Shown: positions 34,463 to 61,254, counted from the first letter of the stretch. The stretch is 64,000 nt of DNA from Adlercreutzia sp. ZJ304 (GCF_011039075.1 NZ_JAAKEG010000006.1:62001-126000), one strand, 5' to 3'. Made by a program: numbers and translations. The notes: a model not told the origin generated them from the letters alone.

Positions 34463-34463
34463 A

Positions 34464-35824: not shown

Positions 35825-35890
35825 CCCATGCCTGTCACGTGTTGGTCAAAAAAATCCCCGACCCGTTTAACCAAGTCAGGGATTAAGTTT

Positions 35891-35929
<39 letters not shown>

Positions 35930-36283: not shown

Positions 36284-36347
36284 CAGTCTTATTGCGTTGG
36301 ATTCGCTTATTCATCGTCTTTGATGAAGTTCTTCGCTTGGTTGCCAT
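36267..36347 (-). CDS. 26-aa basic peptide ORF
   Basis: ATG preceded by AAAGG; highly basic (ATKRRTSSKTMNKRIQRNK). It lies directly downstream of the specificity gene and before the terminator. May be a real small peptide or a chance frame; nothing else supports it. Confidence 0.3.
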   Translation of the reverse strand: MATKRRTSSKTMNKRIQRNKTETGAI

Positions 36348-36415
36348 CCTTTGTTCCTTTCCTTTGTTTGTCTTGATACCTAACAAATCCTTTTTGCTTA
36401 TCCACTTGTTCCGAA

Positions 36416-42061: not shown

Positions 42062-43363
42062 ATGCAATACAAACCGAAGAGCCTGAGACGCCGCAGAGGC
42101 ACAAACAAGTGGGAATGCGCCCTCACGCACGACGACCCCATCTCGGGAGAAGAGGTCATCACTTACCACACCGTTGAGGGCAAGACCAGAAACCAGGCGG
42201 TACAGGCGAGATGCGACCTCATCATCAAGCTGAAAACCGAAGGGCTCGCCGCATCCTCCGATATGACCGTTCAGCAGTTCATGGGCTGCTTTCTGGAATA
42301 CAAGGTGCGGTCAAAGACGATAGAGCCCTCTACCATCCGCGGCTACAGAGGCGAAACGAAGATGATCTGCCGCTACATTGGCTCCGAGGAGCTATCCAAG
42401 CTGACGATTCCCGTCGTCAACGCGTGGATGGCCTCCATGTCGCAGGATGGGTACGCGCCGAAGAGCGTCTCCAAATGCTTCCGCCTTCTCAAGCAAGCGC
42501 TCAACTACGCCATCGCCCAGGACCTTATCAAGAAGAACCCCTGCAACTTCTGCAAGCCGCCCAAGAGGGTGAAGACGAAGATCAACGCGCTGTCACGCGA
42601 GGAGCGCAGTCGCATGCTCGATCTTACGAGGAGGGCGCAGCCCAACGCCCTTGCCGTCGCCATAGAGCTTATGCTCACGACGGGCATGCGCAGAGGAGAG
42701 GTCTGCGCGCTCATGTGGGACGACTTCGACGAGACAAAGCGCGAGGTCGCCGTCTCTCATTCCCTCGGCAACGGAGAGGGCGGCTTCTATCTGAAAGAGC
42801 CCAAGTCTGGGAGAACGCGCACCATTCCGCTCACGGAGCACACGTTCAACATGCTCAAGGGGATGCAGGACGACGTGAAGTGGATGTGCGCGAAGCTGAA
42901 GGTGAAGCTGGGACAAGCCTACATTCTCGGCACCCTCGAAACGGAAAGCCGTCCTTACAACCCGACCCAGCTCGGCAAGGATTTCGCGGCGTTCTGTAAG
43001 ATGAACGGCTTCGAGTGCACGCTTCACGATCTGCGCCACACATTTGCGACCTATATGATCGCAGAGGGTGCCGATGTCCGCACCGTCTCCGACTACCTCG
43101 GCCATGCGAACCCCTCCATGACGCTCGACATCTATGCCGATGTTGACCCGGAGGCGAAGCGCTCCGCAGTGAAGTACATCGAAGGCGCGTTCGATGACGC
43201 CATGAGCGTTTTCCAACGTGACATCGAGCGCCGGAAGGCCGATCTTGACGGTTCGGAGGCGCAGTCATGTCCGGAGAGGATCTCTGGCGTCTCGCCGGAA
43301 TCCATCCCGTTTTCCATAGAAGAGCTCGAAGAGATGATAGCCGTGCTGAAGAAGGCGTCGTAA
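42062..43363 (+). CDS. int: Tyrosine recombinase / integrase
   Basis: 433 aa; GGAAAGGAATCATC lies before the ATG. It has an N-terminal arm-binding segment (about 1-60, SLRRRRGTNKWECALTHDD), a core-binding domain (about 75-175), and a catalytic domain with Arg in TTGMRRGEVCALMW, HDLRHTFAT, and the nucleophile in LDIYADV. All catalytic residues are present and the C-terminal helix FSIEELEEMIAVLKK follows. It lies just outside the tRNA-end repeat and reads away from it, so its own element probably extends rightwards to about 55.5 kb, with the left replicon stacked beside it. Confidence 0.92.
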   Translation: MQYKPKSLRRRRGTNKWECALTHDDPISGEEVITYHTVEGKTRNQAVQARCDLIIKLKTEGLAASSDMTVQQFMGCFLEYKVRSKTIEPSTIRGYRGETKMICRYIGSEELSKLTIPVVNAWMASMSQDGYAPKSVSKCFRLLKQALNYAIAQDLIKKNPCNFCKPPKRVKTKINALSREERSRMLDLTRRAQPNALAVAIELMLTTGMRRGEVCALMWDDFDETKREVAVSHSLGNGEGGFYLKEPKSGRTRTIPLTEHTFNMLKGMQDDVKWMCAKLKVKLGQAYILGTLETESRPYNPTQLGKDFAAFCKMNGFECTLHDLRHTFATYMIAEGADVRTVSDYLGHANPSMTLDIYADVDPEAKRSAVKYIEGAFDDAMSVFQRDIERRKADLDGSEAQSCPERISGVSPESIPFSIEELEEMIAVLKKAS

Positions 43364-43376
43364 GGGTCAGCGATAC

Positions 43377-43405
43377 GTCCACTGGGACAATTTGTCCCAG
43401 TGGAC
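43377..43405. terminator. 29-bp palindrome after the recombinase gene
   Basis: Perfect 14-bp arms (GTCCACTGGGACAA / TTGTCCCAGTGGAC) around a single T. Its core GGGACAATTTGTCCC recurs, complemented and with one change, at 56234-56248. It could stop the recombinase transcript or bind a regulator. Confidence 0.5.
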
Positions 43406-43498
43406 AGCTAACAGGCGGGCCCTCTGCAAGTCACCTGCCATGCATTGGGCGCAATGCGTTTCGAACGGCGGCGCTTGAAGGAAAAGGCCGTGGGGCGA

Positions 43499-44359
43499 TT
43501 AGGGGTGCGTGTTTATGCCCGCAAATCTGAGAAGCTCGCTTGCAGCATCCATGGCCTGCTCGAAAGACACGCCAACAGCGTAGGACGCGTCTTGGACATA
43601 GGAGTCCCATACGCCACTCATCGCATCAGACGAGCGAACCTCCTCCACAACGCTTTCCCAATCCTCCATCGCATCCAATGACCCGCGCCTCTCGCAAGTG
43701 GATTGCAGCGCTTCGCTCAGCTCTTCGGGATTCAGCTGGTCGGCTACCGTATGACGCAGGATATAGAGGTCGTAGTAATCCCTTCCGCGCGTGTTCGCAG
43801 TTCCCCGGCTGATCACCGTCTCCAGCTTTTCCGCAACGACCGTAGCCAAATGGTATGAGAGAATCTCCAACGAACCTTGATCGAACATGAGCGCATAGGG
43901 ATAGCTGATTGCCCTCGGTCGCAAGGCGTCTCCGGTCGTAATGTCGATCTTGATGGGAGCGTTAATCTTGCCGTACCGCACATTGATGTGGGCTCGCCAG
44001 TTGGCGTACTCGTCATCCTCGCGAATGGGCTCTATCCTCACGAATTCGTAAGCCATCCCATCGCCAACTTCGATATCGCAGATCTTCTCGATTGCGGCTC
44101 TCACAGTTTCTTCATCCATGTTCATGCCTATGACCGTCGTGTCCATGTCCATGGTCGTACGCTGGACAACCCCCGTAATGGCGGATATGAGTAATCCGCC
44201 CTTGAGTACGAACTTGTCAGCATATGGGCTTTTCTCTAGCCTCATAAGCAAGTGCTCGAACAGATACATCTGGAGAACCTCTTGGGGCTTGAGCGCATGG
44301 TCTTTTGCGAACTGGCGTATCTTGCCTTTCAGGCTCGCATCGCTTTTGATCTTGTTCAT
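43499..44359 (-). CDS. abiEii: AbiEii-type nucleotidyltransferase toxin
   Basis: 286 aa. The nucleotidyltransferase core is visible: KFVLKGGLLISAITGVVQRTTMDMDT in two parts (about 47-72), with the D-x-D metal residues in TMDMDT, followed by INAPIKIDITTGDAL. GGAGG lies ahead of the ATG, which overlaps the antitoxin stop by 4 bases. AbiEii transfers nucleotides onto tRNA and blocks growth on phage attack; the coupled antitoxin prevents this normally. Confidence 0.9.
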   Translation of the reverse strand: MNKIKSDASLKGKIRQFAKDHALKPQEVLQMYLFEHLLMRLEKSPYADKFVLKGGLLISAITGVVQRTTMDMDTTVIGMNMDEETVRAAIEKICDIEVGDGMAYEFVRIEPIREDDEYANWRAHINVRYGKINAPIKIDITTGDALRPRAISYPYALMFDQGSLEILSYHLATVVAEKLETVISRGTANTRGRDYYDLYILRHTVADQLNPEELSEALQSTCERRGSLDAMEDWESVVEEVRSSDAMSGVWDSYVQDASYAVGVSFEQAMDAASELLRFAGINTHP

Positions 44360-44955
44360 GTGAGCACCTCCAGGTAGGTTTGCAGCTCGTCACGCACCCC
44401 TAACGCCTCGCTCATCTTGGCGAGTTTGGGCAGGTCGCGGTCGCTCTTCCTGAAATACCCCACCAAGGCGTCTCTGACGAGTTGTGGGTTCACAGTGCCC
44501 TTCGCCCTCTCTTGGATGATGTCGGCTATGGAGCGCTCCGCATCGTAGGCGGGCACGACGATGCCCATGGGGTCCTTCACCGTGGTCCTGCCCAGTCCGT
44601 AGAGCTTGTCGCCCTCGCGGTAGATCCTCATGTCCGGATGGGTGCGCCTCAGCTCCTGCGGATTATATCCCCGCGGGACACTTACGCTCAGGTTCCCGGG
44701 CACGCGGTCGGAGAGCCCCAGCAAGTACAGCGCCGTGCCATGCGAGAGGATGCACTTCGGCCAGCGCATCGTGACGGCCGCGAACTCGTCGTCCAGCACG
44801 TCGAGGGAGCAGTAGACGCCACGGGTGAGACGGTCGATCCTGCCGCTGCTGAAGGCGTGCTCAATCACGCCGGGCGAGAACCCGGCCTCCTTGAGCTGCG
44901 CCGCGGTCGCCACGCCCCCCAGCTCCTCGATATGCTCCGCTACCGACCTTGTCAC
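44356..44955 (-). CDS. abiEi: AbiEi-type antitoxin
   Basis: 199 aa from a GTG preceded by AGGAG; the frame continues upstream and could start earlier. It has an N-terminal winged helix (ELGGVATAAQLKEAGFSPGVIEHAF, then GRIDRLTRGVY) and a C-terminal domain with SHGTALYLLGLSDRVPGNLSVSVP, both typical of AbiEi. It represses the operon through inverted repeats and neutralises the toxin encoded just after it. Confidence 0.87.
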   Translation of the reverse strand: MTRSVAEHIEELGGVATAAQLKEAGFSPGVIEHAFSSGRIDRLTRGVYCSLDVLDDEFAAVTMRWPKCILSHGTALYLLGLSDRVPGNLSVSVPRGYNPQELRRTHPDMRIYREGDKLYGLGRTTVKDPMGIVVPAYDAERSIADIIQERAKGTVNPQLVRDALVGYFRKSDRDLPKLAKMSEALGVRDELQTYLEVLT

Positions 44956-44972
44956 TTGAACTCCTAGATTTT

Positions 44973-45002
44973 TAGACACATATTTTATTGTATTTGTGTC
45001 TA
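44973..45002 (-). promoter_or_regulatory. Inverted repeat before abiEi
   Basis: TAGACACA (44973-44980) and TGTGTCTA (44995-45002), with 14 AT-rich bases between them, sit in the promoter region of the pair. AbiEi proteins bind inverted repeats of this kind to autoregulate. Confidence 0.5.
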
Positions 45003-45262
45003 TAAGTCTAATTCCATTCAATTACCGCGACCCCCTATGGCAGACCACCTTCCCTTCAAGCGAAAAAACTTGCCGAGAACCTGAATGCACGCAAGGACCG
45101 CGAAAACTTTTTATGTAGGTGGCTCATTTCTTACACCGCCATAAAAACTCGGGCCCTCACGGGTTTCGCGTTTCTCCCTTGCGTGCACGACGGAGCCCCG
45201 GCGCCCCTCCGCTCGGAAGGCGAAGGCATAGGGCCTCGCCGAAGATCAGGAGGTCGCAAACC

Positions 45263-45508: not shown

Positions 45509-46000
45509 ATGCCCCACTCAAAGAAGACCTTCACTCCGCAAGATGCCGATCTGCGCCGGATCACGGAGGCCTTTTCGCGCCTGAAGACGGCGGGAAGGGA
45601 CGATCGCGACATCTGGTCCGCCTTCGTCACGATGGCTGCAGCACCCATGGCCATGGCGGCTGGCTGCGCACCCGGCTCGCTCGTCGAGGACGCCGAAAGG
45701 CGGTTCAAGAGATACGATGGGCTCACAGACGAGTTCGACGAGATGCTCTCCGCTCTCACCGACGCGCTTGAGGCGGATTCCGACCGCGATGTCATGGGCC
45801 ACGTATACAACGCCCTCGGCCTTCCGATGCGCTCCCGCTCACAGTTCTTCACGCCCTATGGCATCTCCAGGATGATCGCGCGGATGATGCTTTCCGACAG
45901 CGCGAAAGCCAAGGAGAAGGGCTACGTCACGATATGCGACCACCCGCGAGGGCTACGAGCGTATTTGCAGGCGCGTGGACGAGCTGAGCGAGGGCCGTGA
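45509..46000 (+). pseudogene. N-6 DNA methylase, N-terminal part fused to repeat unit
   Basis: AAAGGAG lies ahead of the ATG. About 143 residues belong to an element-type N6-methylase, ending in SRSQFFTPYGISRMIARMML and GYVTICD, just where motif I (DPACGAG) should come. At 45939 the sequence switches abruptly to the 286-bp repeat and the frame stops at 46000. So the catalytic part was removed by a recombination event. Confidence 0.68.
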
Positions 46001-46224
46001 CGCCTATCCGCTCATCGGCACGGAGCGGGAGCCTGAGTTCTTCGAGGAGCAGGACGGCTCAGTGGTGTTCGGCTGGGACTGGGTCAAGTGGTACGACGGG
46101 CAGCTTGCGGACGTGACGGACGTCTCCGATGCGCTTTCCGAGATCGCGGATGACGGCATCGCTTGCGCGCGGCGTGCCCGACCTCCGGATAGCCGGCGTG
46201 ACAGATCGGGCTGCCAGCGAGATC
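45939..46224 (+). repeat. 286-bp direct repeat, left copy
   Basis: Nearly identical to 55766-56051 and the same length. It encodes an internal piece of a protein (REGYERICRRVDELSEGRDA, then EREPEFFEEQDGSVVFGWDW), with no start of its own in this copy. The two copies flank the transhydroxylase island. Differences are few: for example, the bases near 46192-46208. Confidence 0.85.
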
Positions 46225-46243: not shown

Positions 46244-47023
46244 TTAAGCCATTTCTCCACCATCGATCAAAATGCTGGAGCCTGTCACCCACTGAGAAGC
46301 ATCTGATGCTAAATACAAAACTCCATTGGCGATATCTTCAGGCTGACCCAATCGCCGTAAGGGGATCCTTTGTGCAGCAGGGGCCACGAATTTCTCGAAT
46401 TGCTCGTCCATTCCTTCTGGATGAGTCATCTCTGTCTCGATAAGGCCCGGTATAACAGCATTGACGCGAATCTTTTCCGGTGCGAGCTTCTTAGCGAAGA
46501 ACTTGGTCCATGCCTTGATCGCACCCTTCGCTGCTGTATATGCAGCGCTACCAGCAGCATGAAGACTGGCAAGGGAGTTGACAAGTATGATTGAGCCATT
46601 ATCCGATTTGGCACATTCTTTGTGTCCGTACTTGAGCATGTAGAAAACGCCATCTAGGTTTATATCCAATACATTTCTGTAGTTCTCCATGTCGAACTCG
46701 TCATCGATGGTTCGTCCATTTAAGCCATTAATGCCATGGGCAAGGACGATGACATCAAGTCTTCCAAAACGACTGACGCACTCTGTGATCGCTCGCTTGC
46801 ATTGTTCTGGATCCGAGACATCAATGGCGCAATATCCGGCTTCAACGCCGTAGGCTTTGATTTCCTCTACAGCCTCAGCTAATCGATCTTCGCGTCTCGC
46901 TATCAAGAAGACGTTAGCCCCTGCTTCTGCTAGCACTCGAGCAGAAGCTTTGCCGATGCCCTCACTGCTTGCTCCGGTAATAAGCGCAACGCGCCCTTCC
47001 ATACTGAATTGATCTAAGTTCAT
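46244..47023 (-). CDS. Short-chain dehydrogenase/reductase (SDR)
   Basis: 259 aa, classical SDR. Cofactor motif GASSEGIGKASA (about 17-28), AHGINGLNG in place of NAGxxG, active-site Ser in VNSLASLHAAGSAAYTAAKGA with Tyr and Lys four apart, and a C-terminal GSSILIDGG. The basic ARREDRLAE after strand 2 favours NADP(H). It is the last gene of a minus-strand run within the transhydroxylase island. A role as phloroglucinol-type or cyclic ketone reductase is a reasonable inference but unproved. The homologous SDR at 54280 is at the other end of the island. Confidence 0.9.
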   Translation of the reverse strand: MNLDQFSMEGRVALITGASSEGIGKASARVLAEAGANVFLIARREDRLAEAVEEIKAYGVEAGYCAIDVSDPEQCKRAITECVSRFGRLDVIVLAHGINGLNGRTIDDEFDMENYRNVLDINLDGVFYMLKYGHKECAKSDNGSIILVNSLASLHAAGSAAYTAAKGAIKAWTKFFAKKLAPEKIRVNAVIPGLIETEMTHPEGMDEQFEKFVAPAAQRIPLRRLGQPEDIANGVLYLASDASQWVTGSSILIDGGEMA

Positions 47024-47061
47024 TCTTCTCCTTCAGCAACTTATCTAACACACGTTTCTTA

Positions 47062-47673
47062 CTAACCCATTTCCCTTATGAAATCGGTTTCACCATCCCA
47101 ATCTTTACCGGCATTGATCACCATGTCGTGAATGAATTTCGCTCCATCATCAATAAGTTGAACCATCATTCCTAATTCCTCGGTCATGTCTACGACCATG
47201 AATCCGATCTTGTTCTCATCCAAGCCTAGCGTTGAAGGATCGATCCCCATCGCTTCGCATTTCTCCAATGCTCCTGAGATGTCGGTATACCCAATAACGA
47301 CAATCGGGATACCAAGTTCCTCACATGCCTCTTTGGCTTCTTCGAGACTTTCGACGAAAACATGAAGATGATTGATCCCAGGTTTATCCATATCGTTGTA
47401 ATCGGTATACATGGAGTCGCCTGGGGTTAATTGCTGTACAACTTCCACAGAATGACTTCCCCATGCGCCGTAATACGCCCGAAGCTCAAAAGGGTTTTCA
47501 AGCTCTTTCCCTCGATAGATCACCTTGCTGAATTTGTTTACTGTTGTGAAATAAGGGCCTGAGCCGAATAACCTGTTGTGCTCTCTAGCAAATCGTTCAC
47601 CATCTGGGGCATAAAAGCCGATCTGATGAACAAAGTCTCTGCCCTTGAAGTAATTTTGATACCTGCTGCTCAT
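47062..47673 (-). CDS. VOC-fold (glyoxalase/dioxygenase superfamily) protein
   Basis: 203 aa. Two beta-alpha-beta units of the vicinal-oxygen-chelate fold are visible: FVHQIGFYAPDGERFARE near the start, and GINHLHVFVESLEEAKEACEELGIP in the middle (metal-ligand His positions). Late on, DMTEELGMMVQLID carries the last Glu. VOC proteins isomerise, hydrate or lyse metal-chelated oxygenated compounds, without oxygen in many cases. In this island it may act on a ring-reduced or ring-opened polyphenol product. A second VOC gene lies at 48752-49204. Confidence 0.85.
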   Translation of the reverse strand: MSSRYQNYFKGRDFVHQIGFYAPDGERFAREHNRLFGSGPYFTTVNKFSKVIYRGKELENPFELRAYYGAWGSHSVEVVQQLTPGDSMYTDYNDMDKPGINHLHVFVESLEEAKEACEELGIPIVVIGYTDISGALEKCEAMGIDPSTLGLDENKIGFMVVDMTEELGMMVQLIDDGAKFIHDMVINAGKDWDGETDFIREMG

Positions 47674-47708
47674 CGTTCTCCTCCTTTTGGATCGAATTCC
47701 AGACCGTA

Positions 47709-48215
47709 TTAATTCACGTTATTTATCATTCGCTCTAGATTCTCGTACCCACCTTGTAATGGTTTTTGCGTAACGATGTCTTTTGCGCCGATCTTTATCA
47801 GATAGCCCAAATCGTTCTCCACTGACTGAATCCTTGAATCCAACGGGCCATTTATCAAGGTCATCCATGTATGGGACTCGTCCTTCAAAAGCGGAAGTAA
47901 CAATTCGAGGATTTCTTCAGATCCTGAGACATCGAGAACATAGGCGATCAGAAGACCTAGCAGCCTTCTTTGCTCAATGGTGCATGGGTCGTCAAACAAG
48001 GCTGAAACATCAAAGAGCGAAGCGCCTAGGTAATATCTGATCTGATTTAGAATTCCATAGTAATCTTCAGCAATTTCTAGGGGAACTTGCACTTCATTGG
48101 CGGCATTTCCAAGCAAAACCAAATCATCTTTTGGAATTCCATCTGAAGAGAGCTTGAGGATAAGGTCTCTGGTAATAAGGAAATTGCTAAAGGGGGGTAT
48201 GATTCCGTGTGCCAT
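47709..48215 (-). CDS. Hypothetical protein, all-helical
   Basis: 168 aa, no cysteine or catalytic motif; several amphipathic helices (RRLLGLLIAYVLDVSGSEEILELLLP). No family recognised. It lies 35 bp upstream of a VOC gene on the same strand and so is part of the island's operon. The promoter should be in the 230 bp gap to the right. Confidence 0.6.
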   Translation of the reverse strand: MAHGIIPPFSNFLITRDLILKLSSDGIPKDDLVLLGNAANEVQVPLEIAEDYYGILNQIRYYLGASLFDVSALFDDPCTIEQRRLLGLLIAYVLDVSGSEEILELLLPLLKDESHTWMTLINGPLDSRIQSVENDLGYLIKIGAKDIVTQKPLQGGYENLERMINNVN

Positions 48216-48443
48216 TATGTCTCCTTGAGTATCCTTATCTTCAACTTTAATTGCTTCGGATTATTTCGCCATTCACAAAAAAAACTGACTGCATTAGACC
48301 TATGAACAAATCTTAAGAATCATTCATTTTAGGGTTGCAATTCCTAAAAATGTAACCTTGATCTCGTCATCCATTAAAGCTGTGAATTGAGACTAGGCGC
48401 AATATTCGCAATTATGGAATCACCCGATAGAAAGAGGTGACCC
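48216..48443. promoter_or_regulatory. Divergent promoter region within the island
   Basis: Between a minus-strand operon and a plus-strand small gene. It has an imperfect palindrome ATTTTAGG..CCTAAAAAT near 48327-48352 and AT-rich stretches suited to promoters. GAAAGAGGTG before the small gene is its ribosome site. Confidence 0.4.
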
Positions 48444-48659
48444 ATGGCTTTGTCGGTAAAAACAAAGTTGAAGGAGATCATGAAGCGCGAGGATGCAATG
48501 GACGTTCTCGAAGAGTACGTACCAGGTGTTAAGGAAAATCCGAAGCTTAAACTCGGTGCTTCAATGCCAATAGACATGCTTGCGAAAATGGCACCTGACA
48601 TGCTTCCGCCAGACAAGATCCCTGAACTGGATGCTGCACTTCAAAAGCTTCCAGATTAA
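48444..48659 (+). CDS. Small helical protein (71 aa)
   Basis: AGAGGTGACCC lies just before the ATG. The sequence (DAMDVLEEYVPGVKENPKLKL, then DMLAKMAPDMLPPDKIPELD) looks like the short helical domain found at the end of some glycoside hydrolases and as a free-standing protein in this family. It probably mediates binding rather than catalysis. It is the only plus-strand gene within the minus-strand part of the island and has its own terminator. Confidence 0.6.
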   Translation: MALSVKTKLKEIMKREDAMDVLEEYVPGVKENPKLKLGASMPIDMLAKMAPDMLPPDKIPELDAALQKLPD

Positions 48660-48690
48660 ATCTTCTTAAAGCTGGAGACTCTGTACCTAG

Positions 48691-48723
48691 AAAAATGACC
48701 CTGGCAATATCAGGGTCATTTTT
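48691..48723. terminator. Bidirectional terminator
   Basis: Perfect 13-bp stem (AAAAATGACCCTG / CAGGGTCATTTTT), loop 7, with A-run and T-run on either side, between convergent genes. A textbook two-way rho-independent terminator. Confidence 0.85.
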
Positions 48724-48751
48724 AGTTTGTGAATAGCTGAGAACTATGTCT

Positions 48752-49204
48752 TTATTCTTCGACGGGCATAGGGAAATATTCCAGAACCGTCCCAATATCA
48801 TCACGGAAATCGTAATACTCCCACTCAAATGGAATGCCCTTTTGATAACCCGCCAACAAGAGCTTATGACCTGAATTCCTTAGGTCGTCCTCATCATCAG
48901 TAGAGACGCTAATATGATGCAGAGAAATCCACGTATCGAGCTTGTCTAACCAATGTGCATAGTCTGAATGATCATCGAGTGGCTGAATCAATTCTATCTC
49001 GATGTCCAATTCAGAATCTGTTGCGCAAAGGAAAGCATAGTCCTGTTTCTCTCCATCACAAATCATCCCAGTAAATTCTTCGTTTGATACTTTGGTTACA
49101 GGACTCCAATCCGTAAGTCCCACCTTGGTGAAGTTCTCTATTGCCTTCTCTATGTCCCTTGTAACGAAACCAAGTTGCTTTATTTCTGTAATATGATTTG
49201 CCAT
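48752..49204 (-). CDS. VOC-fold protein
   Basis: 150 aa, AAGGACATAAT ahead of the ATG. Starts with ITEIKQLGFVTRDIEKAIENF, the first beta-alpha-beta unit of the glyoxalase fold, then WISLHHISVSTDDEDDLRN with a metal-type His, and ends with YYDFRDDIGTVLEYFPMP, with the typical Glu. Single-domain length. Cotranscribed after the TetR gene. Its partner in function may be the larger VOC protein at 47062. Confidence 0.85.
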   Translation of the reverse strand: MANHITEIKQLGFVTRDIEKAIENFTKVGLTDWSPVTKVSNEEFTGMICDGEKQDYAFLCATDSELDIEIELIQPLDDHSDYAHWLDKLDTWISLHHISVSTDDEDDLRNSGHKLLLAGYQKGIPFEWEYYDFRDDIGTVLEYFPMPVEE

Positions 49205-49238
49205 ATTATGTCCTTCTAACGAATCAAAATCTCACGGA

Positions 49239-49820
49239 TCAAAGGTCTGCGAGTTTCATCCAATAGTTAATGCTCATATCGTTGAAAAGCTTCGAAAGAT
49301 TGCTTGCGCTCACTTGCTGGCCGTCTTTTAGCCATCTTTGAATCAAGACTGCGTTGCCTGCAGCAAAATAGTAGCTAACATATTCTTTGCGCCAATCCGA
49401 ATCATCCATGCCGAGATTGGAGAGTATCTCGGTATTCAATATTCTGATGTTCTTGATCAGAGCTTCCACTAAGGGGCTATCTATGTCTCCAGCTTTGCAG
49501 CAGAGACGAGAATAGAATTCGAAATCTTCGCTGATCTCTTTGTAGATCATCTCGTTTACAGCAGTCGGAAAAGTGGTTCTAAGCTCCGGATTCTCCATCA
49601 TAGACATTACGACATCAGATAACTGAATCAATGGTCGAATCAATTTCTCATGCACCAATTGATCGACAATGTCGTATTTACTCTTGTAGTGAACGTAAAA
49701 GGTCTTTCTAGACACGTTCGCATTGTCGCAGATTTGGTACACAGCGACTTTGTCATAAGAAATCCCTTTATTCACAATGAGATCTCTGAAGCTCTCTGCA
49801 ATGACCTCTTTTGCGTTCAT
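49239..49820 (-). CDS. TetR/AcrR-type regulator
   Basis: 193 aa. An N-terminal helix-turn-helix (ISYDKVAVYQICDNANVSRKTFYVHYKSKYDIV, about 19-51) matches TetR-type proteins; the rest is a helical ligand domain. It lies directly after the two transhydroxylase genes and before a VOC gene. A long palindrome sits just upstream of its start. It likely controls the island in response to a phenolic ligand. Confidence 0.87.
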   Translation of the reverse strand: MNAKEVIAESFRDLIVNKGISYDKVAVYQICDNANVSRKTFYVHYKSKYDIVDQLVHEKLIRPLIQLSDVVMSMMENPELRTTFPTAVNEMIYKEISEDFEFYSRLCCKAGDIDSPLVEALIKNIRILNTEILSNLGMDDSDWRKEYVSYYFAAGNAVLIQRWLKDGQQVSASNLSKLFNDMSINYWMKLADL

Positions 49821-49839
49821 GACCTTTTCCGAAACGACA

Positions 49840-49871
49840 ATAGGTAGGATAAGTCTTCTTATCCTACCTAT
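49840..49871. promoter_or_regulatory. 32-bp palindrome before the TetR gene
   Basis: Perfect 14-bp arms ATAGGTAGGATAAG and CTTATCCTACCTAT with a 4-base centre. It lies 20 bp ahead of the TetR start and 26 bp after the end of the transhydroxylase small-subunit gene. Its length and symmetry suit a TetR operator; a terminator for the upstream operon is the alternative, but there is no T-run. Confidence 0.55.
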
Positions 49872-49896
49872 CTAATTTTACACTCTTGATACTCGG

Positions 49897-50697
49897 TTAT
49901 TTGAGCGCAATGTTGCCCATTCCGATGGATTTCTCCTTAGTAGAAACATTTCCTTTGTAGGACTTTCCTCCACCATGGATGGTGAGCTCTAGCTCCTCTT
50001 CGGGAAGATTTCTGAGCCAGAAATCTCCAAAAGCATCAGTCTTTACCGTCCAGCTCCCACTTGGACTTTTAGCGGTAACCGTAGCACCTGTTACTACTTC
50101 TTCGATTTCAGGATCATAAACTTTACCAGCAACGAATCTCTTTGGAAGACCGCGATAATAAACGCGGGTCTTGAGGCCAAACTCAGGCTTTAGCCTCTCT
50201 GTATCCGCAAGGTCCAGCTCAGATTCTTCGCCGAATTGAATTGCATCAAGGTGGCAGTTATCAACACACCTAGGAACACTGATCGGATGGCCACGATCGA
50301 TAAGATGCGCACAGCCGGTGCACTTCTGCGGAATCTCAAGCTCTTCGTTCCAGAAGATTGCCTTGTAAGGGCAAGCATCAACAATCTGCTTTTGACCCTT
50401 TGCCTTCTCAGGATCGATGATCACTAGACCATCTTCTCTTTGATATACTGCATCGTCTTTCGCCGCCTTGATGCAAGGAGCATTCTCGCAATGCTGGCAC
50501 ATGACAGGAACATAAGAAACCTTTACATGAGGGCGTGCGCCATGTTCGGTTTCGTATAGGTGCAGCCAAAATTGCCCAGTGTCAGGCTGTGACTCAGCGT
50601 AGGGCATCCAACAATTGCCGCAATGCTCATCTTTGCAGCCAATCTGGCAATCGTAGCATCCTACGCACTTGTTCAAATCAACAAGAAAGGCTTTCAT
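49897..50697 (-). CDS. Transhydroxylase-type small subunit (iron-sulphur, with beta-barrel tail)
   Basis: 266 aa. Cysteine groups CVGCYDCQIGCKDEHC (11-26), CQHCENAPC, CPYKAI and CTGCAHLID, and a later CVDNC give room for three [4Fe-4S] clusters. The C-terminal 75 residues (KVYDPEIEEVVTGATVTAKS and so on) form an immunoglobulin-like or carboxypeptidase-regulatory beta domain. This unusual combination matches the beta subunit of pyrogallol-phloroglucinol transhydroxylase of Pelobacter (about 274 aa). A single base separates it from the large-subunit gene. Confidence 0.9.
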   Translation of the reverse strand: MKAFLVDLNKCVGCYDCQIGCKDEHCGNCWMPYAESQPDTGQFWLHLYETEHGARPHVKVSYVPVMCQHCENAPCIKAAKDDAVYQREDGLVIIDPEKAKGQKQIVDACPYKAIFWNEELEIPQKCTGCAHLIDRGHPISVPRCVDNCHLDAIQFGEESELDLADTERLKPEFGLKTRVYYRGLPKRFVAGKVYDPEIEEVVTGATVTAKSPSGSWTVKTDAFGDFWLRNLPEEELELTIHGGGKSYKGNVSTKEKSIGMGNIALK

Positions 50698-50698
50698 A

Positions 50699-53374
50699 TT
50701 ATTCGACTCCTTCTACCCAGCCATCATAATGAGAGCCAGATGCAGGATCGTATGCTCTCTCGAAGGCTTCAGGATATTGTTTGACCCATCCAGCCATCTC
50801 CTCGTCAGAGACCTTCTGAACGTCTACAAGATAGCCACTAACCGCAAAGCCATAGCAATGCTTAGAGATTGGTCCTGCAGGGCTGATCAGATTGATATTT
50901 CCTCCGCGGTCGAATTCACTAGCTATTGGATCTGAACGTGAACCCTTGTTCACCATTACTGACTGAGGAAGGATTCTCTCTGAAACCTTAGCTCCGCAAA
51001 GAACGGTGCCACGCTCGTTATAAACCTTAACGATATCGCCATCCTCGATGCCCTGCTTCTTCGCATCCTCAGGGGACATCCAGCAAGGCTCATAGAGGTA
51101 TCCATCCTTACCAACAACCTTTGCTGTTGGGATCTCGCGATGCCAAGTGATATCGTCGCATTGTGCATGGAAGCGCCAACGTCCAGTGCAAGCATTGACC
51201 AAGAATGGATACTTCTTGGCTCGCTCGCCCGCAAGGGTTTCATCATGAGTCCAGCCCTCTGACTCAGGACCGCCTACGATCCATTTTGCGAGCGGCTGAC
51301 GCTCTTTGTCATCAGGGAAATTCTCTTCGAGCTGATCAGAATAGAACTCGATCTTTCCAGAAGGCGTGCCAACCGGGAAGCTCTCAGGATCTTCGTAGAA
51401 GAGTCGAGCATTTGGCTTGTAGTCCTTTGCGTATGGATCCTGTTTCGGTACGTAGAAACCCTTAGCCTTTAGCTCTTCCCAACCGATTTCACTAACAATT
51501 GGCGAACGTTCATATTCAGACTTCTTCTGCTGTTCGATTGTGAGTCCGAATGCCGGCTCACCCTCGATGCGACCTTCCGCCATCTGTTTAGGAAGCTCAG
51601 GGTCGAAACGCTCTGCTATCTTCAGGGAGATTTCGTAGTCAGACAGCGACTCGCCGACAGGTGGGATCGCAGCGTCTTGGACAGCGACCACCTCAATAGA
51701 GTCGCCCATGCCTGATCCTACGATATCCGATTCTTCAGCAGGGGTGGTTACAGGAAGAACAAGGTCTGCAAAAAGCGAGTCGTTCTCAAGCCAAGGATGA
51801 TTCGTGATCACACACTCTAGATCCTTGTTGCGCATCGCCTCTTGGAATTCGAATCCGCCATTCCAGCAAGTTTGATTACAAGGCTTTTCAGACCAGAGCA
51901 TATGGACCTTAGCGCCGCCCTCATCTTCCTCGATGGGATAGAAATTATGCTCGAATTGCTCGTCTGGCATCGCGAAGATGATCTGCGGGCTTCCCCACCA
52001 ATCCGAATGTCCATTCTGAATCGAGCGAGCAACCAAGGTTCTCGGGATTGTCTGATCTGCTGGATAGAACTGCATAGCATGCATTTCTGAGAACATCATA
52101 GGGCCGTAAGGAGTAGGACGAACCGCCTGCTTGCCTCCGCCATACGAGAACAGATGGATCTGCTGTACGCCAGGAGCGCCAAAGCCCTGCAGAGCGAGTT
52201 TGTATACCTCAGTGCGTCCAGGCTCATGGCTGTATGGCCCACGAACATGGCAGCCGCAGTAGTGCAGAATAGAGGTTGTCTTAGTGCCCCATTCGCGTGC
52301 GAGTGCTTTAATTGTCCAAGGCTCTACTCCGCAAATCTCAGAAGCCCATTTTGGAGTCTTAGGAATACCATCTTCTTCGCCTAGGACATATGCCTTCAGC
52401 TTATCGAAGCCATATGTATGGGTCTCCACATAGTTGACGTCATAAAGGCCTTCCGTAAGCCAAACGTACATCATGCCGTAGTCGAGAGCGACATCAGTAT
52501 TTGGAAGCAGCGGGATCCATGTGATCTCGTCATGGCAAACAGAGGTGTATGTGCAGAATGGGTCAACAACTACAAGCTTGATGCCGATATCCATCCAGAA
52601 GCGCATGACGCGACTCATCCATTGGCTGGCATAATTTTGGGTGGTCTCAAGGTCGCCCGCCTGCATGATGACCATGTCGGCATTTTTGGTGACATCTTCG
52701 ATAACGTTCCATCCGTTATCGAACATTCCCAAACCAGCTTGCACCTGTGCGCCCCAAGCGAACTTGGCTCCCCAGTAGAATCCCTCAACTGAGTCTGGGG
52801 TTCTGACCTCACGAGTGAAACCGCCGGTTCTCATGAGCAAGTTGATGTGATTACCACCAACCATGTGGATGATCTTCGATTGGCAATGTCCATCTTCGCC
52901 GACTGCAAGTACGGAATTCTCACCGTAAGTCTTGCGAACACGTTTGATCTCATCGGCGATGATATCGCATGCTTCATCCCAGCTAATGCGAACGAATTTG
53001 GATTTGCCGCGGTTCTCGGCGTTGATCTTGTCGGGGTCTCCGCCTGGTTCCCAGTCAACGCGTTTTAGTGGATACTTTACGCGATTCTTCGAATAGATGC
53101 GCTTCTTGTATGCAAGCGACTGATAAGGTGGAGCGGTTTTCACTGGACATTTCAGCGTCTTTCCTCTTGCCGTGAAAGACCAAAGGCTGTCTTTGAGCTC
53201 ATCCATCGAATACTCATCGGTATATCGAATAGGACGAATTCTGACTACCTTGCCGTCTTTCGAATCAATGGCTGATAGTTCACCGCCTGTGCCACCGCAA
53301 GCCATCCCACGATAGATCGTAGTTTCTGGTTCTTGCCATGGGCCGCTTGCGACCTCATGCTCTGCCATATCCAC
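50699..53374 (-). CDS. Pyrogallol-phloroglucinol transhydroxylase-like molybdenum subunit
   Basis: 891 aa, close to the 875 aa of the Pelobacter alpha subunit. N-terminus GGTGGELSAIDSKDGKVVRI lacks the cysteine motif of most family members, as in the transhydroxylase. Then come FTARGKTLKCPVKTAPP, KYPLKRVDWEPGGDP, FVRISWDEACDIIADEI, and the bis-MGD contacts DLETTQNYASQWMSRVMRFW. The C-terminal cap ends with RGGNINLISPAGPISKHCYG, again as in the Pelobacter enzyme. No Tat signal, so cytoplasmic. It would move a hydroxyl group between positions of a trihydroxybenzene without net redox, or reductively remove one. Substrate is not certain. Confidence 0.9.
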   Translation of the reverse strand: MDMAEHEVASGPWQEPETTIYRGMACGGTGGELSAIDSKDGKVVRIRPIRYTDEYSMDELKDSLWSFTARGKTLKCPVKTAPPYQSLAYKKRIYSKNRVKYPLKRVDWEPGGDPDKINAENRGKSKFVRISWDEACDIIADEIKRVRKTYGENSVLAVGEDGHCQSKIIHMVGGNHINLLMRTGGFTREVRTPDSVEGFYWGAKFAWGAQVQAGLGMFDNGWNVIEDVTKNADMVIMQAGDLETTQNYASQWMSRVMRFWMDIGIKLVVVDPFCTYTSVCHDEITWIPLLPNTDVALDYGMMYVWLTEGLYDVNYVETHTYGFDKLKAYVLGEEDGIPKTPKWASEICGVEPWTIKALAREWGTKTTSILHYCGCHVRGPYSHEPGRTEVYKLALQGFGAPGVQQIHLFSYGGGKQAVRPTPYGPMMFSEMHAMQFYPADQTIPRTLVARSIQNGHSDWWGSPQIIFAMPDEQFEHNFYPIEEDEGGAKVHMLWSEKPCNQTCWNGGFEFQEAMRNKDLECVITNHPWLENDSLFADLVLPVTTPAEESDIVGSGMGDSIEVVAVQDAAIPPVGESLSDYEISLKIAERFDPELPKQMAEGRIEGEPAFGLTIEQQKKSEYERSPIVSEIGWEELKAKGFYVPKQDPYAKDYKPNARLFYEDPESFPVGTPSGKIEFYSDQLEENFPDDKERQPLAKWIVGGPESEGWTHDETLAGERAKKYPFLVNACTGRWRFHAQCDDITWHREIPTAKVVGKDGYLYEPCWMSPEDAKKQGIEDGDIVKVYNERGTVLCGAKVSERILPQSVMVNKGSRSDPIASEFDRGGNINLISPAGPISKHCYGFAVSGYLVDVQKVSDEEMAGWVKQYPEAFERAYDPASGSHYDGWVEGVE

Positions 53375-53520
53375 TCCTCTCTTGTTTTGTCAGATTATTC
53401 CGACATTACAAAGGTAGGAGACGGGACTAAGTCAACTCAATTCTCAAAAAGGTATGCTTTGGCAAAACAGTTGACAGTTTTGCCAAATAGAACAAACCGG
53501 GTTACAAAAGAAAAGATTCG

Positions 53521-54039
53521 TCACTCATTATCATGTTCACAGTGAAGATGCGCCTTACACCCGCATTCCTTTTCATGATGGTATTCTTCGTGGCTTATCG
53601 CATCTTCTTCGGAGTTGATAATTTTTACTACAGAGATCTTGTAGTTAATAGCATTTCCCGCTAGTTCATGATTGTGGTCAAAAGTAACGGTATCATCTGA
53701 AACTTCGACTACCTTTGTCCGCATAGGCCCCATATCAGTGTTGAAGATTATATAGTCGCCAACAGGAAGAGCGTCTGCGTTTGGAATGTCTGATCTCGGA
53801 ACTTTTTCAATAAGATTTGGATCGTATTCACCATAAGCATCTTTTGCTTCGACCCTCTGTGTGATCCGGCTATCTTTATCCAAACCGAGTAGAATCTCAT
53901 TCAGCAGTGGCAGGATTTCTTTTTGCTGCAAGTCAATTTCTATAGGTATCCCACCTTGGCGATGGGTGTCGAAGAAGGTTCTTCCATCGTCAAGGCTAGC
54001 TGTGATGTGAATCTTAGCCTTGCTGTTTTTCTCTATCAT
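53521..54039 (-). CDS. SlyD-like FKBP-type peptidyl-prolyl isomerase with metal-binding tail
   Basis: 172 aa. FKBP/SlyD layout: a first strand with ITASLDDGRTFFDTHR, AYGEYDPNLIEKVPRSDIP in the flap region, then VTFDHNHELAGNAINYKISVV, as in SlyD. The last 20 residues are rich in His and Cys (EEYHHEKECGCKAHLHCEHD), the metal-binding tail of nickel chaperones. It may help metal insertion or folding of the molybdoenzyme encoded next to it. It lies 146 bp upstream of the large-subunit gene on the same strand. Confidence 0.85.
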   Translation of the reverse strand: MIEKNSKAKIHITASLDDGRTFFDTHRQGGIPIEIDLQQKEILPLLNEILLGLDKDSRITQRVEAKDAYGEYDPNLIEKVPRSDIPNADALPVGDYIIFNTDMGPMRTKVVEVSDDTVTFDHNHELAGNAINYKISVVKIINSEEDAISHEEYHHEKECGCKAHLHCEHDNE

Positions 54040-54279
54040 CTCATCTCCCCTTTTTTTGAATCTATCAAGTGATTCGCGATCATGGAACTTCTCAATATGT
54101 ATATTTGTATAACTTCTTCAGGAACTTTACTGGATTATGTCACCCGCATTGTTTGAGACATCTTTAATTGAGAATGGTAAGCAACGGGGATTAAGGGTAG
54201 CTTTAAATCACTTGCAAGTTCAGAAAGAGCGCATCGGTCTCTTTCTGGCTCGAGAACAATTTTGAGAGGACGATGGCGT

Positions 54280-55101
54280 ATGGAAAGCGAGATGAAAGTA
54301 GATGTAAACAAGGCATTCGATTTAACTGGCAGAGTAGCACTTATCACTGGTGCTAGCTCATGGGGTATCGGATCCGCTTCGGCCGAGGCTATGGCAGAAA
54401 AAGGAGCAAAGGTTTTCTTAGTTGCACGTCGCGAGGAACAGCTAAAGCAAAAGGTTGAAGAGTTCGAGAAGAAGGGCTATACAGCTGCATATGCGGTTTG
54501 TGATGTTGAAAAAGAAGAAGAATGCAAGGCAGCAGTTGATAAGTGTGTGGAGGCGTTCGGTCGCCTTGACATCCTCGTGACGTCCGCAGGCAATGCTGGT
54601 GAAGCGCCCTATGAGATCGCAGACGAGTTCGATACAGACAATTGGAGATGGGTGCATAGCCTGAATCTTGATGGAAGCATCTGGTTCATGAAGTATGCAT
54701 GGAAAGAGTGTTCAAAACACAAGGTTGGATCGATTATCTTCATCTCTTCGCTCGGAGCATTTACTGCAGATGGGTGTGCTGCATATTGCTCGACAAAAGG
54801 CGCTTTGCGAAGTCTGACAACCCACTTTGGTTATCATCTGGCGCCATTCGGCGTGCGCGTTAATAGTATCTATCCAGGATACATTGCTACAGATCTAACC
54901 AAAGAAGCATTCCTGAATCCCTATTCCAGCGGTAATTTCATCGAAAGGGTTCCGATGGGGCGTCTTGGTATGCCAGAGGATATTGCATACGGAGCGTTAT
55001 TCCTTGCGTCTGACGCATCGGCATTCATGACAGGGCAAGGCCTCATCATAGATGGCGGTCAGATCATCGAAGGAAGGGGCTTTCTTGAGTATGAAGGATA
55101 A
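54280..55101 (+). CDS. Short-chain dehydrogenase/reductase (SDR)
   Basis: 273 aa from the ATG preceded by GAGAGGA. Cofactor motif GASSWGIGSASA (about 25-36), SAGNAG, the active site SSLGAFTADGCAAYCSTKGALR with Tyr and Lys, and a C-terminal MTGQGLIIDGG. It resembles the SDR at 46244 in both ends and length, so the two probably arose by duplication and act on related cyclic intermediates. It is divergent from the SlyD gene and has its own terminator. Confidence 0.9.
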   Translation: MESEMKVDVNKAFDLTGRVALITGASSWGIGSASAEAMAEKGAKVFLVARREEQLKQKVEEFEKKGYTAAYAVCDVEKEEECKAAVDKCVEAFGRLDILVTSAGNAGEAPYEIADEFDTDNWRWVHSLNLDGSIWFMKYAWKECSKHKVGSIIFISSLGAFTADGCAAYCSTKGALRSLTTHFGYHLAPFGVRVNSIYPGYIATDLTKEAFLNPYSSGNFIERVPMGRLGMPEDIAYGALFLASDASAFMTGQGLIIDGGQIIEGRGFLEYEG

Positions 55102-55662: not shown

Positions 55663-55797
55663 ATGAGGCGCAGGAAGAGGGAGGTCCTCGACAAGGACGA
55701 GGTCTTCGGGATACTCGCGAGGTGCAAAACCGTGCGCATCGGGATGTTCGGCGATAGGTACCCCAACCACCCGCGAGGGCTACGAGCGCATTTGTAG
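55663..55797 (+). pseudogene. Pyridoxamine 5'-phosphate oxidase-like gene fragment
   Basis: GGGAGG lies ahead of the ATG. About 35 residues (MRRRKREVLDKDEVFGILAR, then CKTVRIGMFGDRYP) match the start of the flavin-binding PNPOx-like family. The gene then runs into the 286-bp repeat at 55766 and stops 10 codons later. So the repeat unit was joined here too. Confidence 0.55.
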
Positions 55798-56051
55798 GCG
55801 CGTGGACGAGCTGAGCGAGGGCCGTGACGCCTATCCGCTCATCGGCACGGAGCGGGAGCCTGAGTTCTTCGAGGAGCAGGACGGCTCAGTGGTGTTCGGC
55901 TGGGACTGGGTCAAGTGGTACGACGGGCAGCTTGCGGACGTGACGGACGTCTCCGATGCGCTTTCCGAGATCGCGGATGACGGCATCGCTTGCGCGCGGC
56001 GTGCCCGACCTCCGGATAACCGGCGTAACAGCCCGAGCTGCCAGCGAGATC
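55766..56051 (+). repeat. 286-bp direct repeat, right copy
   Basis: Partner of 45939-46224. Here the open frame continues beyond the repeat into a further 160 bp, so this copy keeps more of the original gene. Confidence 0.85.
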
Positions 56052-58679: not shown

Positions 58680-59444
58680 CTACAAAAACAGCTCTGGGTC
58701 CTTCTTCTCCATGCAGGCCTTCTTGATGGCCTTCGCGGCAACAGACACCATCATCTTGTTGATGCTGCGTGCATTCTTTGGGCAGACTTGGATGCAACGC
58801 ATGCACGAGATGCAGAGGGCCTTGTTGGCAGCATAATCCTCCGAATTAATGGCGGCGGCTGGACACGCGCGTGCGCACTCTCCGCACGAGACGCAATTGC
58901 CGGTCACTTTGGGAACCAGCGGAACAGACCCCGCCTTCTTATATGGCGTGTTCCCAGGAACCTCGAACGGCTCGTTGGCCCCTGCTTGCATCTTCTCCTT
59001 TATTTCTTCAGCAAATTTCTTGAGAGCATCGACTTCGGGAAGATCGGGCATTCCCGTTGCATACTGGTGCATGATCGAATGCTCCGTAATGGCCGATATG
59101 GCGGCGATAACATCAAACCCCATCTTCTCGGCTGAATCCTTGAGCTCGAGCAGCGCATCGTCGTAAGCGCGGTTACCGTAGGCGATTACAACTATGGATT
59201 TCGAGCCCTGAGGATCGATCTTTTGCAAGCGCTCCAAAGCGAGCGCCGGAACCCTTCCCCCGAAGCAAGGCATCGATATAACCGAGAGGCCGACCGGATC
59301 CAAGACGAGATCGCTCTCGTTTACGAAGGGGTCCGAGAGGTCTATGGTCCTTATCTCGCCGCCGTCCGACAGCGATTCGCACAATACGCCGGCGATCTTC
59401 CCGGTTCCTCCTGTAGGGCTGAAGACTATGTTGTTGATAATCAT
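58680..59444 (-). CDS. EFR1-type flavodoxin-ferredoxin fusion
   Basis: 254 aa from the ATG preceded by GAGAGGAAGAACG. An N-terminal flavodoxin fold with the phosphate-binding FSPTGGTGKIAG (about 8-19), then from about 185 a ferredoxin part with two cluster motifs: CVSCGECARACP and CISCMRCIQVCP. Such proteins pass electrons between flavin and 4Fe-4S clusters and often support radical SAM or reductase enzymes. It sits 81 bp downstream of a radical SAM gene on the same strand, so it may be that enzyme's electron donor. Confidence 0.9.
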   Translation of the reverse strand: MIINNIVFSPTGGTGKIAGVLCESLSDGGEIRTIDLSDPFVNESDLVLDPVGLSVISMPCFGGRVPALALERLQKIDPQGSKSIVVIAYGNRAYDDALLELKDSAEKMGFDVIAAISAITEHSIMHQYATGMPDLPEVDALKKFAEEIKEKMQAGANEPFEVPGNTPYKKAGSVPLVPKVTGNCVSCGECARACPAAAINSEDYAANKALCISCMRCIQVCPKNARSINKMMVSVAAKAIKKACMEKKDPELFL

Positions 59445-59473
59445 CGTTCTTCCTCTCTTGGTCATGCCTAAGA

Positions 59474-59503
59474 GCCCGTGCGCTTCGGCAGCCGCGCACG
59501 GGC
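59474..59503. terminator. GC-rich hairpin between rSAM and EFR1 genes
   Basis: Perfect 10-bp stem (GCCCGTGCGC / GCGCACGGGC), loop 10, in the 81-bp gap. No T-run; it may reduce read-through or stabilise mRNA. Confidence 0.5.
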
Positions 59504-59525
59504 GGGGTCGTTCGCGGGCGGGGTC

Positions 59526-60896
59526 TTATAGCGAGCGTCCTTCCGCTAGCAGGACAACGCCCGTCTCGTCGATCTCTATCGGTTCGATGGAAGCGACCCA
59601 GCCATAGAGATACTCGTTCGCGGTGTACTTCAGCGGATGGCATGGATGGTCTGCACACTGCTTTCGCTCCCACTCGCAGTTCCCCTTGCACAAGGGCAGC
59701 AGCGAGCATTCCGGACATGCCGGGTCATCAAAGGGATACGCCGGCGCCAATCCCGTCGGGATATCGGTCGCGTCGCCTATCGAATCAAGGTTGAAGGCCA
59801 GATGATCGGTCCTCCCCATGCGGCCATCGCACTTGTACACATCTCCCATCGCATCAATGGCATAGTAGCGTTCCTTCTGGCCACGGCAGAATAGCGGTAT
59901 CGGCTGGAGCAGCGCGGCGAATTCGGCAAATGCGTGCCCTTCTTCGCAGAAGCGCTCGCATTGAAGGCGCGAAAATTCGCGATGGTCCATAAGCGAGAAG
60001 CGCGGCTCGCAGAATCGGCCGCGACCGAACGTGCCGTAGTAATCGTTCAACTTCGCGCGGATTGCGCTCATGCCGAACCGTTCTTGGAGCTGCGAATTCA
60101 GTTCGCTGAGGCACGAGTCGTTCACCTTGTCGGTGTTCATCAGCACCGTGACGCCGATGCCCTCGCCGAGCAAATTGCCGATGCCATCGAGAACGGCCTC
60201 GTACGAATTGCCGCCATTTCTCATGGGACGCCGCCCGTTATGCACAGCCTCCGGGCCGTCGACGGTGACGAGGGCCTCGGTCACGCGGCTCCGTCCCAGC
60301 ATAGCGGCTTCCTCAGCACCGATGCGCGTCGCGTTCGACACCATGTTCGCGCTGAATCCGAGACCGCGCTCCTCGCAGAAGCGCATGAGCCCGGCCGAAA
60401 TAGCATCTATCGCATCGGGCATGAGCATGGGCTCGCCGCCGTACCATTGGACCTCGATGCTCTCGTACGGCTCCGCTTCGAAGGCCAGCCTTGCGAAGTC
60501 GACGATCTTCTTCTGCATCGACCGGTCCATCCTCTTGCCCGAAGAGCTGCGCCCCTCTTCGTAGCAGTAGGGGCAAGCGAGATTGCAAGTGTAGGTCGGT
60601 ACTATGCAGAGCGAGAGCACCGAGGAATCCTGCTGTAGCGCGCGGTGTTCCGCTACCGCTTCGGCGAGCTCGTCACAGGCGGCAGCGACGAGAAGCCCCG
60701 ATCTTGCCAGCTGGGCTACAGCTCTCGCATCTATTCTCGCAAAGTCGCTTTCTTCGAGCAGCGCGCTCATCCCGAGGACGGCCGCAATGCTCTCATCGAC
60801 GAGCGCCAGCGCTCCTGTGCGAGTGTTGTAGACAATCGAGCCATCGCGGCTCTCTTGCAATGCGACGATGTTGTATCTGGAGGGCTTCAGTTCCAT
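59526..60896 (-). CDS. Radical SAM/SPASM-domain protein (peptide or sulfatase maturase-like)
   Basis: 456 aa from the second ATG. A PqqD-like or leader-binding N-terminal region (about 1-90: TGALALVDESIAAVLGMSAL) comes before the radical SAM core with CNLACPYC (CxxxCxxC, about 107-114), the SAM-binding GGEP, and later a SPASM region with CRGQKERYYAIDAMGDVYKC and CPECSLLPLCKGNC. It is of the type that modifies peptides or sulfatases. No obvious precursor peptide is encoded next to it; the small membrane ORF at 58397 is the only candidate and is weak. The gene downstream is a likely electron donor. Confidence 0.88.
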   Translation of the reverse strand: MELKPSRYNIVALQESRDGSIVYNTRTGALALVDESIAAVLGMSALLEESDFARIDARAVAQLARSGLLVAAACDELAEAVAEHRALQQDSSVLSLCIVPTYTCNLACPYCYEEGRSSSGKRMDRSMQKKIVDFARLAFEAEPYESIEVQWYGGEPMLMPDAIDAISAGLMRFCEERGLGFSANMVSNATRIGAEEAAMLGRSRVTEALVTVDGPEAVHNGRRPMRNGGNSYEAVLDGIGNLLGEGIGVTVLMNTDKVNDSCLSELNSQLQERFGMSAIRAKLNDYYGTFGRGRFCEPRFSLMDHREFSRLQCERFCEEGHAFAEFAALLQPIPLFCRGQKERYYAIDAMGDVYKCDGRMGRTDHLAFNLDSIGDATDIPTGLAPAYPFDDPACPECSLLPLCKGNCEWERKQCADHPCHPLKYTANEYLYGWVASIEPIEIDETGVVLLAEGRSL

Positions 60897-61254
60897 GGAG
60901 CCATTGTATCTTTCGCGCAAGGGCTGAGCAAGGACACGTTATCGTCACAGCCTCACGCTCGTCTTTTCTGTTGATTGAAATCCGAGGCGCGCCCCCAGCC
61001 ATTGCGCTTACTTATTCAATTAAGGGACAAGAGGGACTGATTGCTTGAAGCCTAAATTGTCAAACCCATCCGACTACGGTTGTTTCTCTATCGAGCCTAT
61101 CCGCGCTCTGAAGCTGAAACTCGTTGAATCCCATGAGAGACCGCCCCTTGATCGTCAGGCATCATTGAAATCAGATTGAGAGTCGGCCACAAGGTGAAAA
61201 CTGGGCTGGTCTAGCCCTCTTCGAGGTCTATGCCTTCTTTTTGATCCAGCAGCA
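60897..61254. other. Intergenic, nothing identified
   Basis: 360 bp between the radical SAM and SRAP genes. It should hold the radical SAM promoter. Short frames do not resemble known proteins; no strong repeats or hairpins seen. Confidence 0.4.

Follow-up and report, generated by a model that had tools for sequence, protein, structure and literature searches.

A 64,000-nt window of the genome (2.0 Mb, 98% complete) of Adlercreutzia sp. ZJ304, a gut/rumen member of the Eggerthellaceae, was analysed, and the module at positions 46244-55101 encodes a two-subunit molybdenum enzyme related to the Pelobacter acidigallici transhydroxylase AhtLS, surrounded by short-chain dehydrogenases/reductases (SDRs), vicinal oxygen chelate (VOC) proteins and small accessory proteins. 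On the minus strand, the genes read FKBP, large molybdenum subunit, small Fe-S subunit, TetR, VOC150, a 168-aa orphan, VOC203 and SDR-B; the plus strand carries the divergent SDR-A and a 71-aa gene. An earlier note on this DNA had named the large and small subunits, two SDRs, VOC proteins, a TetR regulator, a SlyD-like metal chaperone and the 168-aa protein, and all are present where it placed them, the VOC proteins being two of the Glyoxalase_4/VOC type and the SlyD-like protein an FKBP; the conserved 71-aa gene was absent from its gene list. The features are as follows, with clade A denoting the group of related molybdenum enzymes described below.

46244..47023, minus strand: SDR-B, 259 aa (PF13561; NF005559 above cut-off; motif alignment)
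47062..47673, minus strand: VOC203, predicted methylmalonyl-CoA-epimerase-like fold (AlphaFold2 model, Foldseek, invariant columns)
47709..48215, minus strand: 168-aa orphan protein (no Pfam or NCBIfam match)
48444..48659, plus strand: 71-aa small protein (family recurs near clade-A molybdenum genes; no Pfam match)
48752..49204, minus strand: VOC150, second epimerase-like VOC protein (PF13669; weak metmalonyl_epim; Q/E/H/E pattern)
49239..49820, minus strand: TetR-family regulator (PF00440; relatives at many clade-A loci)
49840..49871, no strand: 14-bp perfect inverted repeat between the small-subunit and TetR genes, candidate terminator or TetR operator
49897..50697, minus strand: small Fe-S subunit, 266 aa, AhtS-like (best Protein Data Bank (PDB) match 4v4c_B; conserved Cys)
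50699..53374, minus strand: large molybdenum subunit, 891 aa, transhydroxylase (AhtL)-like (PF00384, PF01568, weak AhtL-like_1st; best PDB match 4v4c_A)
53521..54039, minus strand: FKBP/SlyD-like prolyl isomerase with a His/Cys-rich tail (PF00254; many clade-A genes have an FKBP within 6 kb)
54262..55101, plus strand: SDR-A, divergent (PF13561; 81% ortholog inside the L009 operon); the true start is likely the in-frame ATG close to 54292 that matches the start of its orthologs

The whole gene set is syntenic in L009, a sheep-ileum Eggerthellaceae metagenome-assembled genome, so it is a real unit and more than a chance arrangement; near-identical synteny was also found with L010. Identity to the L009 orthologs is high for the large (87%) and small (79%) subunits, VOC203 (87%), SDR-A (81%) and SDR-B (69%), and lower for TetR (59%), FKBP (49%) and the 168-aa protein (about 40%). 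The L009 genes are co-oriented as FKBP, large subunit, small subunit, TetR, VOC150, SDR-A, 168-aa protein, VOC203 and SDR-B, with a small gene on the opposite strand between SDR-A and the 168-aa gene; SDR-A thus lies within the operon in L009 and outside it, divergently, in ZJ304. The 49840 palindrome is missing at the equivalent place in relatives and has no second copy, and its role as a TetR operator common to several promoters was rejected on these grounds.

By sequence comparison, the molybdenum enzyme groups with pyrogallol transhydroxylase and not with dimethyl sulfoxide (DMSO) reductase, trimethylamine N-oxide (TMAO) reductase or acetylene hydratase. The best PDB match of the large subunit was 4v4c_A (pyrogallol hydroxytransferase large subunit; 281 bits versus 210 for DMSO reductase), and a profile of 24 relatives scored 509 bits to AhtL over its full length, 295 bits to TMAO reductase and 95 bits to acetylene hydratase. 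Over 796 alignment columns, the large subunit and AhtL are 29.5% identical. The small subunit matched 4v4c_B best (193 versus 89 bits), including the C-terminal domain (CarboxypepD_reg in Pfam), and retains 12 Cys residues to hold three [4Fe-4S] clusters, bearing out the match of both subunits to the Pelobacter enzyme that the earlier note had proposed. To our knowledge, only one transhydroxylase of the AhtL lineage has been characterized, and it acts on trihydroxybenzenes. AhtL residues H144 and D174, which we take to be active-site residues, and S175, presumably the molybdenum ligand in the Pelobacter structure, correspond to H163, D194 and S195 of the large subunit and are conserved in 38/38 aligned Eggerthellaceae sequences, although the profile alignment of the 24 relatives sets the histidine one residue off. 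In the same 38-sequence alignment, the Tyr404 region of AhtL, a poorly alignable stretch, has no tyrosine in the Eggerthellaceae enzymes, and the AhtL insertion around Tyr560 is a gap. Of the previous reading as a pyrogallol transhydroxylase, the lineage and the three residues therefore stand, and the two tyrosine regions do not. The betaproteobacterial locus L011:8711-19442 also has a transhydroxylase-like subunit pair, beside BKACE, 2-hydroxyacid dehydrogenase, FAD-dependent oxidoreductase, EutA-like and cupin genes.

The large subunit has no twin-arginine translocation (Tat) signal and no N-terminal Fe-S motif, and no membrane subunit is encoded at the locus; since neither a Tat motif nor a membrane subunit is present, a cytoplasmic location is most likely. 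The missing Tat signal and membrane subunit also speak against a reductive dehydroxylase whose electron sink would be a plant phenol or hydroxyketone, with a function like that of catechol dehydroxylases in another lineage. We consider this explanation rather unlikely, even though the enzyme shares with the known catechol dehydroxylases its host family, an expansion into paralogs and a regulator for each enzyme (PMC7028382, PMC11887054), and the three small-subunit Fe-S clusters could supply electrons. Among enzymes with a bis-molybdopterin guanine dinucleotide (bis-MGD) cofactor, catechol dehydroxylases are reportedly nearest to acetylene hydratase (PMC7028382), whereas the ZJ304 lineage is nearer to the transhydroxylase (509 versus 95 bits). 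Membership in the catechol dehydroxylases themselves was rejected on this difference.

Transhydroxylase-like relatives were found in 52 of a set of 138 Eggerthellaceae genomes. In a tree including AhtL, which sits on a long branch, and DMSO reductase, the ZJ304 enzyme belongs to clade A (24 genes, spread over 20 genomes of which some hold more than one; SH-aLRT support 100), whose sister clade comprises 14 paralogs at 40-46% identity. Within 6 kb of the molybdenum gene, relatives of the window's VOC proteins lie near 21/24 clade-A genes and 0/14 sister-clade genes (Fisher 7e-8; loci related), and relatives of its SDRs near 15/24 and 0/14, respectively (Fisher 1e-4; loci related). The neighbours of sister-clade genes are instead Na+/sulfate-type symporters and, in two cases, a different glyoxalase protein. 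Also recurrent at clade-A loci are MFS transporters, FKBPs, TetR or kinase/regulator proteins, zinc-ribbon proteins and proteins of about 72 aa. The last are the family of the 71-aa protein, which has members near about ten clade-A molybdenum genes and no match in Pfam. The 168-aa protein is carried by only 3/138 genomes, plus a weak relative in one further genome (G040); it matched nothing in Pfam or NCBIfam, and its AlphaFold2 model, with a predicted local distance difference test (pLDDT) score of 58, is too low in confidence for a fold search. The diversification of the enzyme clade into many 55% paralogs suggests many substrates, and the ZJ304 locus represents one instance of a conserved Eggerthellaceae metabolic module that is probably substrate-specific.

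SDR-B and VOC203 are also found together in another Coriobacteriia family (VOC203 up to 84% identity); because the pair occurs there with no molybdenum gene, it is likely to constitute one functional step. The AlphaFold2 model of VOC203 (203 aa; pLDDT 87.8) has the VOC superfamily fold, and its best Foldseek matches are methylmalonyl-CoA epimerases (3gm5, 6qh4). VOC203 residues H16, E77, H102/H104 and Q172 are invariant across 19 sequences and probably serve as metal ligands, and the VOC150/170 proteins conserve a Q/E/H/E pattern. Against the methylmalonyl-CoA epimerase model TIGR03081 (cut-off 114.95 bits), VOC150 scored 23.6 bits and VOC203 had no match. Taken with the predicted fold, this residue layout would suit a metal-dependent enolising enzyme. 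We note that related small VOC proteins are found in other Eggerthellaceae clusters (L126-L129) with shikimate-dehydrogenase-like, Gfo/Idh-like and CoA-transferase-like genes, which by eye resemble quinate/shikimate metabolism.

The SDRs are generic and glucose-1-dehydrogenase-like, with the glycine motif, the YxxxK catalytic motif and, after the second strand, ARR, as expected of NADPH-type SDRs. Their closest solved relatives (gluconate, 3-oxoacyl-ACP and 7-alpha-hydroxysteroid dehydrogenases) score alike, so the SDRs neither support nor exclude any single substrate; the earlier note had named a greater similarity to steroid or bile-acid dehydrogenases as damaging to its proposal, and the steroid enzyme scores at about the level of the other two. 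The resemblance to the steroid and gluconate dehydrogenases speaks for a non-phenolic ring substrate, such as a cyclitol, quinate-type acid, steroid, triterpene or isoflavanone, on which an SDR-VOC-SDR set would carry out oxidation, epimerisation and reduction. Such sets would fit epimerisation beside a ketone, but the sole characterized enzyme of the molybdenum lineage acts on trihydroxybenzenes, and Pfam and NCBIfam annotation of the cluster revealed no sterol-, cyclitol- or quinate-specific genes. We regard this explanation as unlikely, although equol production, for which Slackia employs an SDR and Lactococcus an SDR together with a racemase, offers a parallel (PMC4381290).

The locus had been proposed as a phloroglucinol degradation island with SDRs suited to phloroglucinol-type reduction. 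PF04199, which we take to be the ring-opening family of dihydrophloroglucinol cyclohydrolase (DPGC), and BKACE (PF05853), presumably the family of triacetate acetoacetate-lyase (TAL), have no member in the 98% complete genome. The phloroglucinol pathway comprises phloroglucinol reductase (PGR), DPGC, TfD and TAL (PMC10470551), and phloroglucinol reductases are NADPH-dependent and have a TR(S/N) motif (Zhou et al., PMC10470551). Compared with this published motif alone, TR(S/N) was not seen in the module SDRs, all of which have ARR; their suitability for phloroglucinol had been a supposition rather than an observation. PF04199 is present in 25/138 Eggerthellaceae genomes, and a close clade-A enzyme accompanies it in just one of these, G090. 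The canonical pathway was rejected on the missing families and on the near-absence of co-occurrence between PF04199 and the module, and the degradation island is not supported. A modified version, in which the molybdenum enzyme converts pyrogallol to phloroglucinol, an SDR performs the reduction to dihydrophloroglucinol, and the VOC and 168-aa proteins replace the missing ring-opening steps, would draw on the AhtLS relationship with its conserved H144/D174/S175, on phloroglucinol reductases being NADPH-dependent (PMC10470551) and SDRs, and on VOC metal sites that could hold a beta-diketone. The same missing families and motif, the absent Tyr404 and Tyr560 loops and the many 55% paralogs in the enzyme clade, with their suggestion of many substrates, make it improbable. 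The island lacks the genes of the known phloroglucinol degradation, but phloroglucinol could still be released as an end product.

The explanation we lean towards, with slightly better than even confidence, is that the transhydroxylase-lineage molybdenum enzyme acts on a hydroxyl of a plant ring compound, moving or removing it, and the SDR and VOC proteins process ketone intermediates; here we infer reaction type, step order and substrate class from observed gene content, lineage, residue conservation and linkage. The AhtLS-like enzyme would bind a plant-derived ring compound bearing neighbouring hydroxyls, and one hydroxyl would be moved or removed at a bis-MGD molybdenum centre with a serine ligand and Asp194/His163 as acid/base, by analogy with the Pelobacter enzyme. 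The product could exist as a ketone, whose carbonyl the NADPH-type SDRs would reduce (or oxidise), and the four-residue metal site of the VOC proteins may enolise the carbon next to the carbonyl, leading to epimerisation or tautomerisation. TetR would switch the module on, a role for a histidine kinase/response regulator in relatives, where MFS transporters may move the substrate or product. A plant phenolic is the most likely substrate class, because the one lineage member characterized so far has trihydroxybenzenes as substrates and the named relatives come from gut samples.

Several points weigh against this explanation. The Fisher values are not independent probabilities, as the loci share kinship, and 9/24 clade-A loci have no nearby SDR, some of them at contig ends. 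With identity to AhtL at only 29.5% and the Tyr404 region not conserved, hydroxyl transfer itself is a putative activity, and the reaction is assigned to clade A from sequence.

More tentatively, these loci may represent a new class of gut pathway, in which transhydroxylase-lineage molybdenum enzymes, each specialised for a different plant compound, shift or strip ring hydroxyls together with dedicated VOC epimerases and SDRs. If true, such a class would exist alongside the catechol dehydroxylases and independently of them. The fixed VOC/SDR company of clade A (at least 20 Eggerthellaceae genomes) predicts the surrounding chemistry, and a large body of uncharacterized gut and rumen molybdenum enzymes beyond the catechol dehydroxylases could be tested with a small substrate panel. 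A partial literature search, which is weak evidence of novelty, found no publication linking transhydroxylase-like enzymes to this Eggerthellaceae gene set.

The genome encodes about 20 molybdenum enzymes of the molybdopterin oxidoreductase type, including a further gene in the window at 10941-13271 whose neighbours, judged by eye, are MFS, TRAP-type and MmgE/PrpD-like. GC content is 46% in the module, 47% at the other molybdenum loci and 57-58% in the flanks; a recent foreign island was rejected, as the module matches the other molybdenum loci and the GC-rich parts are its flanks. Two direct repeats of 286 bp with 7 mismatches, at 45939-46224 and 55766-56051, almost exactly bracket the module, and single copies at 74-85% identity are present in two other genomes (G010 and G304). 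To the left (42062-45021) lie a phage-type integrase and an AbiEi/AbiEii toxin-antitoxin pair. Elsewhere in the window, several large DNA-methyltransferase-like genes in a row (26394-38813) possibly represent, by eye, BREX- or restriction-related defence, and a radical SAM protein with a Cys-rich C-terminus beside a flavodoxin/ferredoxin-type protein (58680-60920) is a possible peptide maturation pair.

Among known systems, the Clostridium scatologenes phloroglucinol cluster (PGR-DPGC-TfD-TAL, PMC10470551) has NADPH-type SDRs in common with the module, which differs in lacking DPGC (PF04199) and TAL (BKACE) and in having ARR rather than TR(S/N). VOC203 resembles methylmalonyl-CoA epimerase in fold and probable metal-site layout but has about 15% identity to it, a length of 203 aa with a C-terminal extension and no score reaching the TIGR03081 cut-off. 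The equol pathway (dihydrodaidzein reductase, an SDR, and dihydrodaidzein racemase; PMC4381290), likened here by description only and not by sequence, also places an SDR and a racemase-type enzyme beside a ketone, whereas the module has no daidzein reductase or tetrahydrodaidzein reductase genes. Pelobacter AhtLS (4v4c/4v4d/4v4e) shares with the Eggerthellaceae enzyme its two subunits, their sizes, the Fe-S set, the small-subunit C-terminal domain and H144/D174/S175; the latter enzyme differs in its 29.5% identity, in not keeping the Tyr404 region and Tyr560 insertion, and in the SDR/VOC module around it. Like the Eggerthella and Gordonibacter catechol dehydroxylases (PMC7028382, PMC11887054), it is a bis-MGD molybdenum enzyme with many paralogs and their own regulators in Eggerthellaceae, but clade A belongs to another bis-MGD lineage and has SDR and VOC partners.

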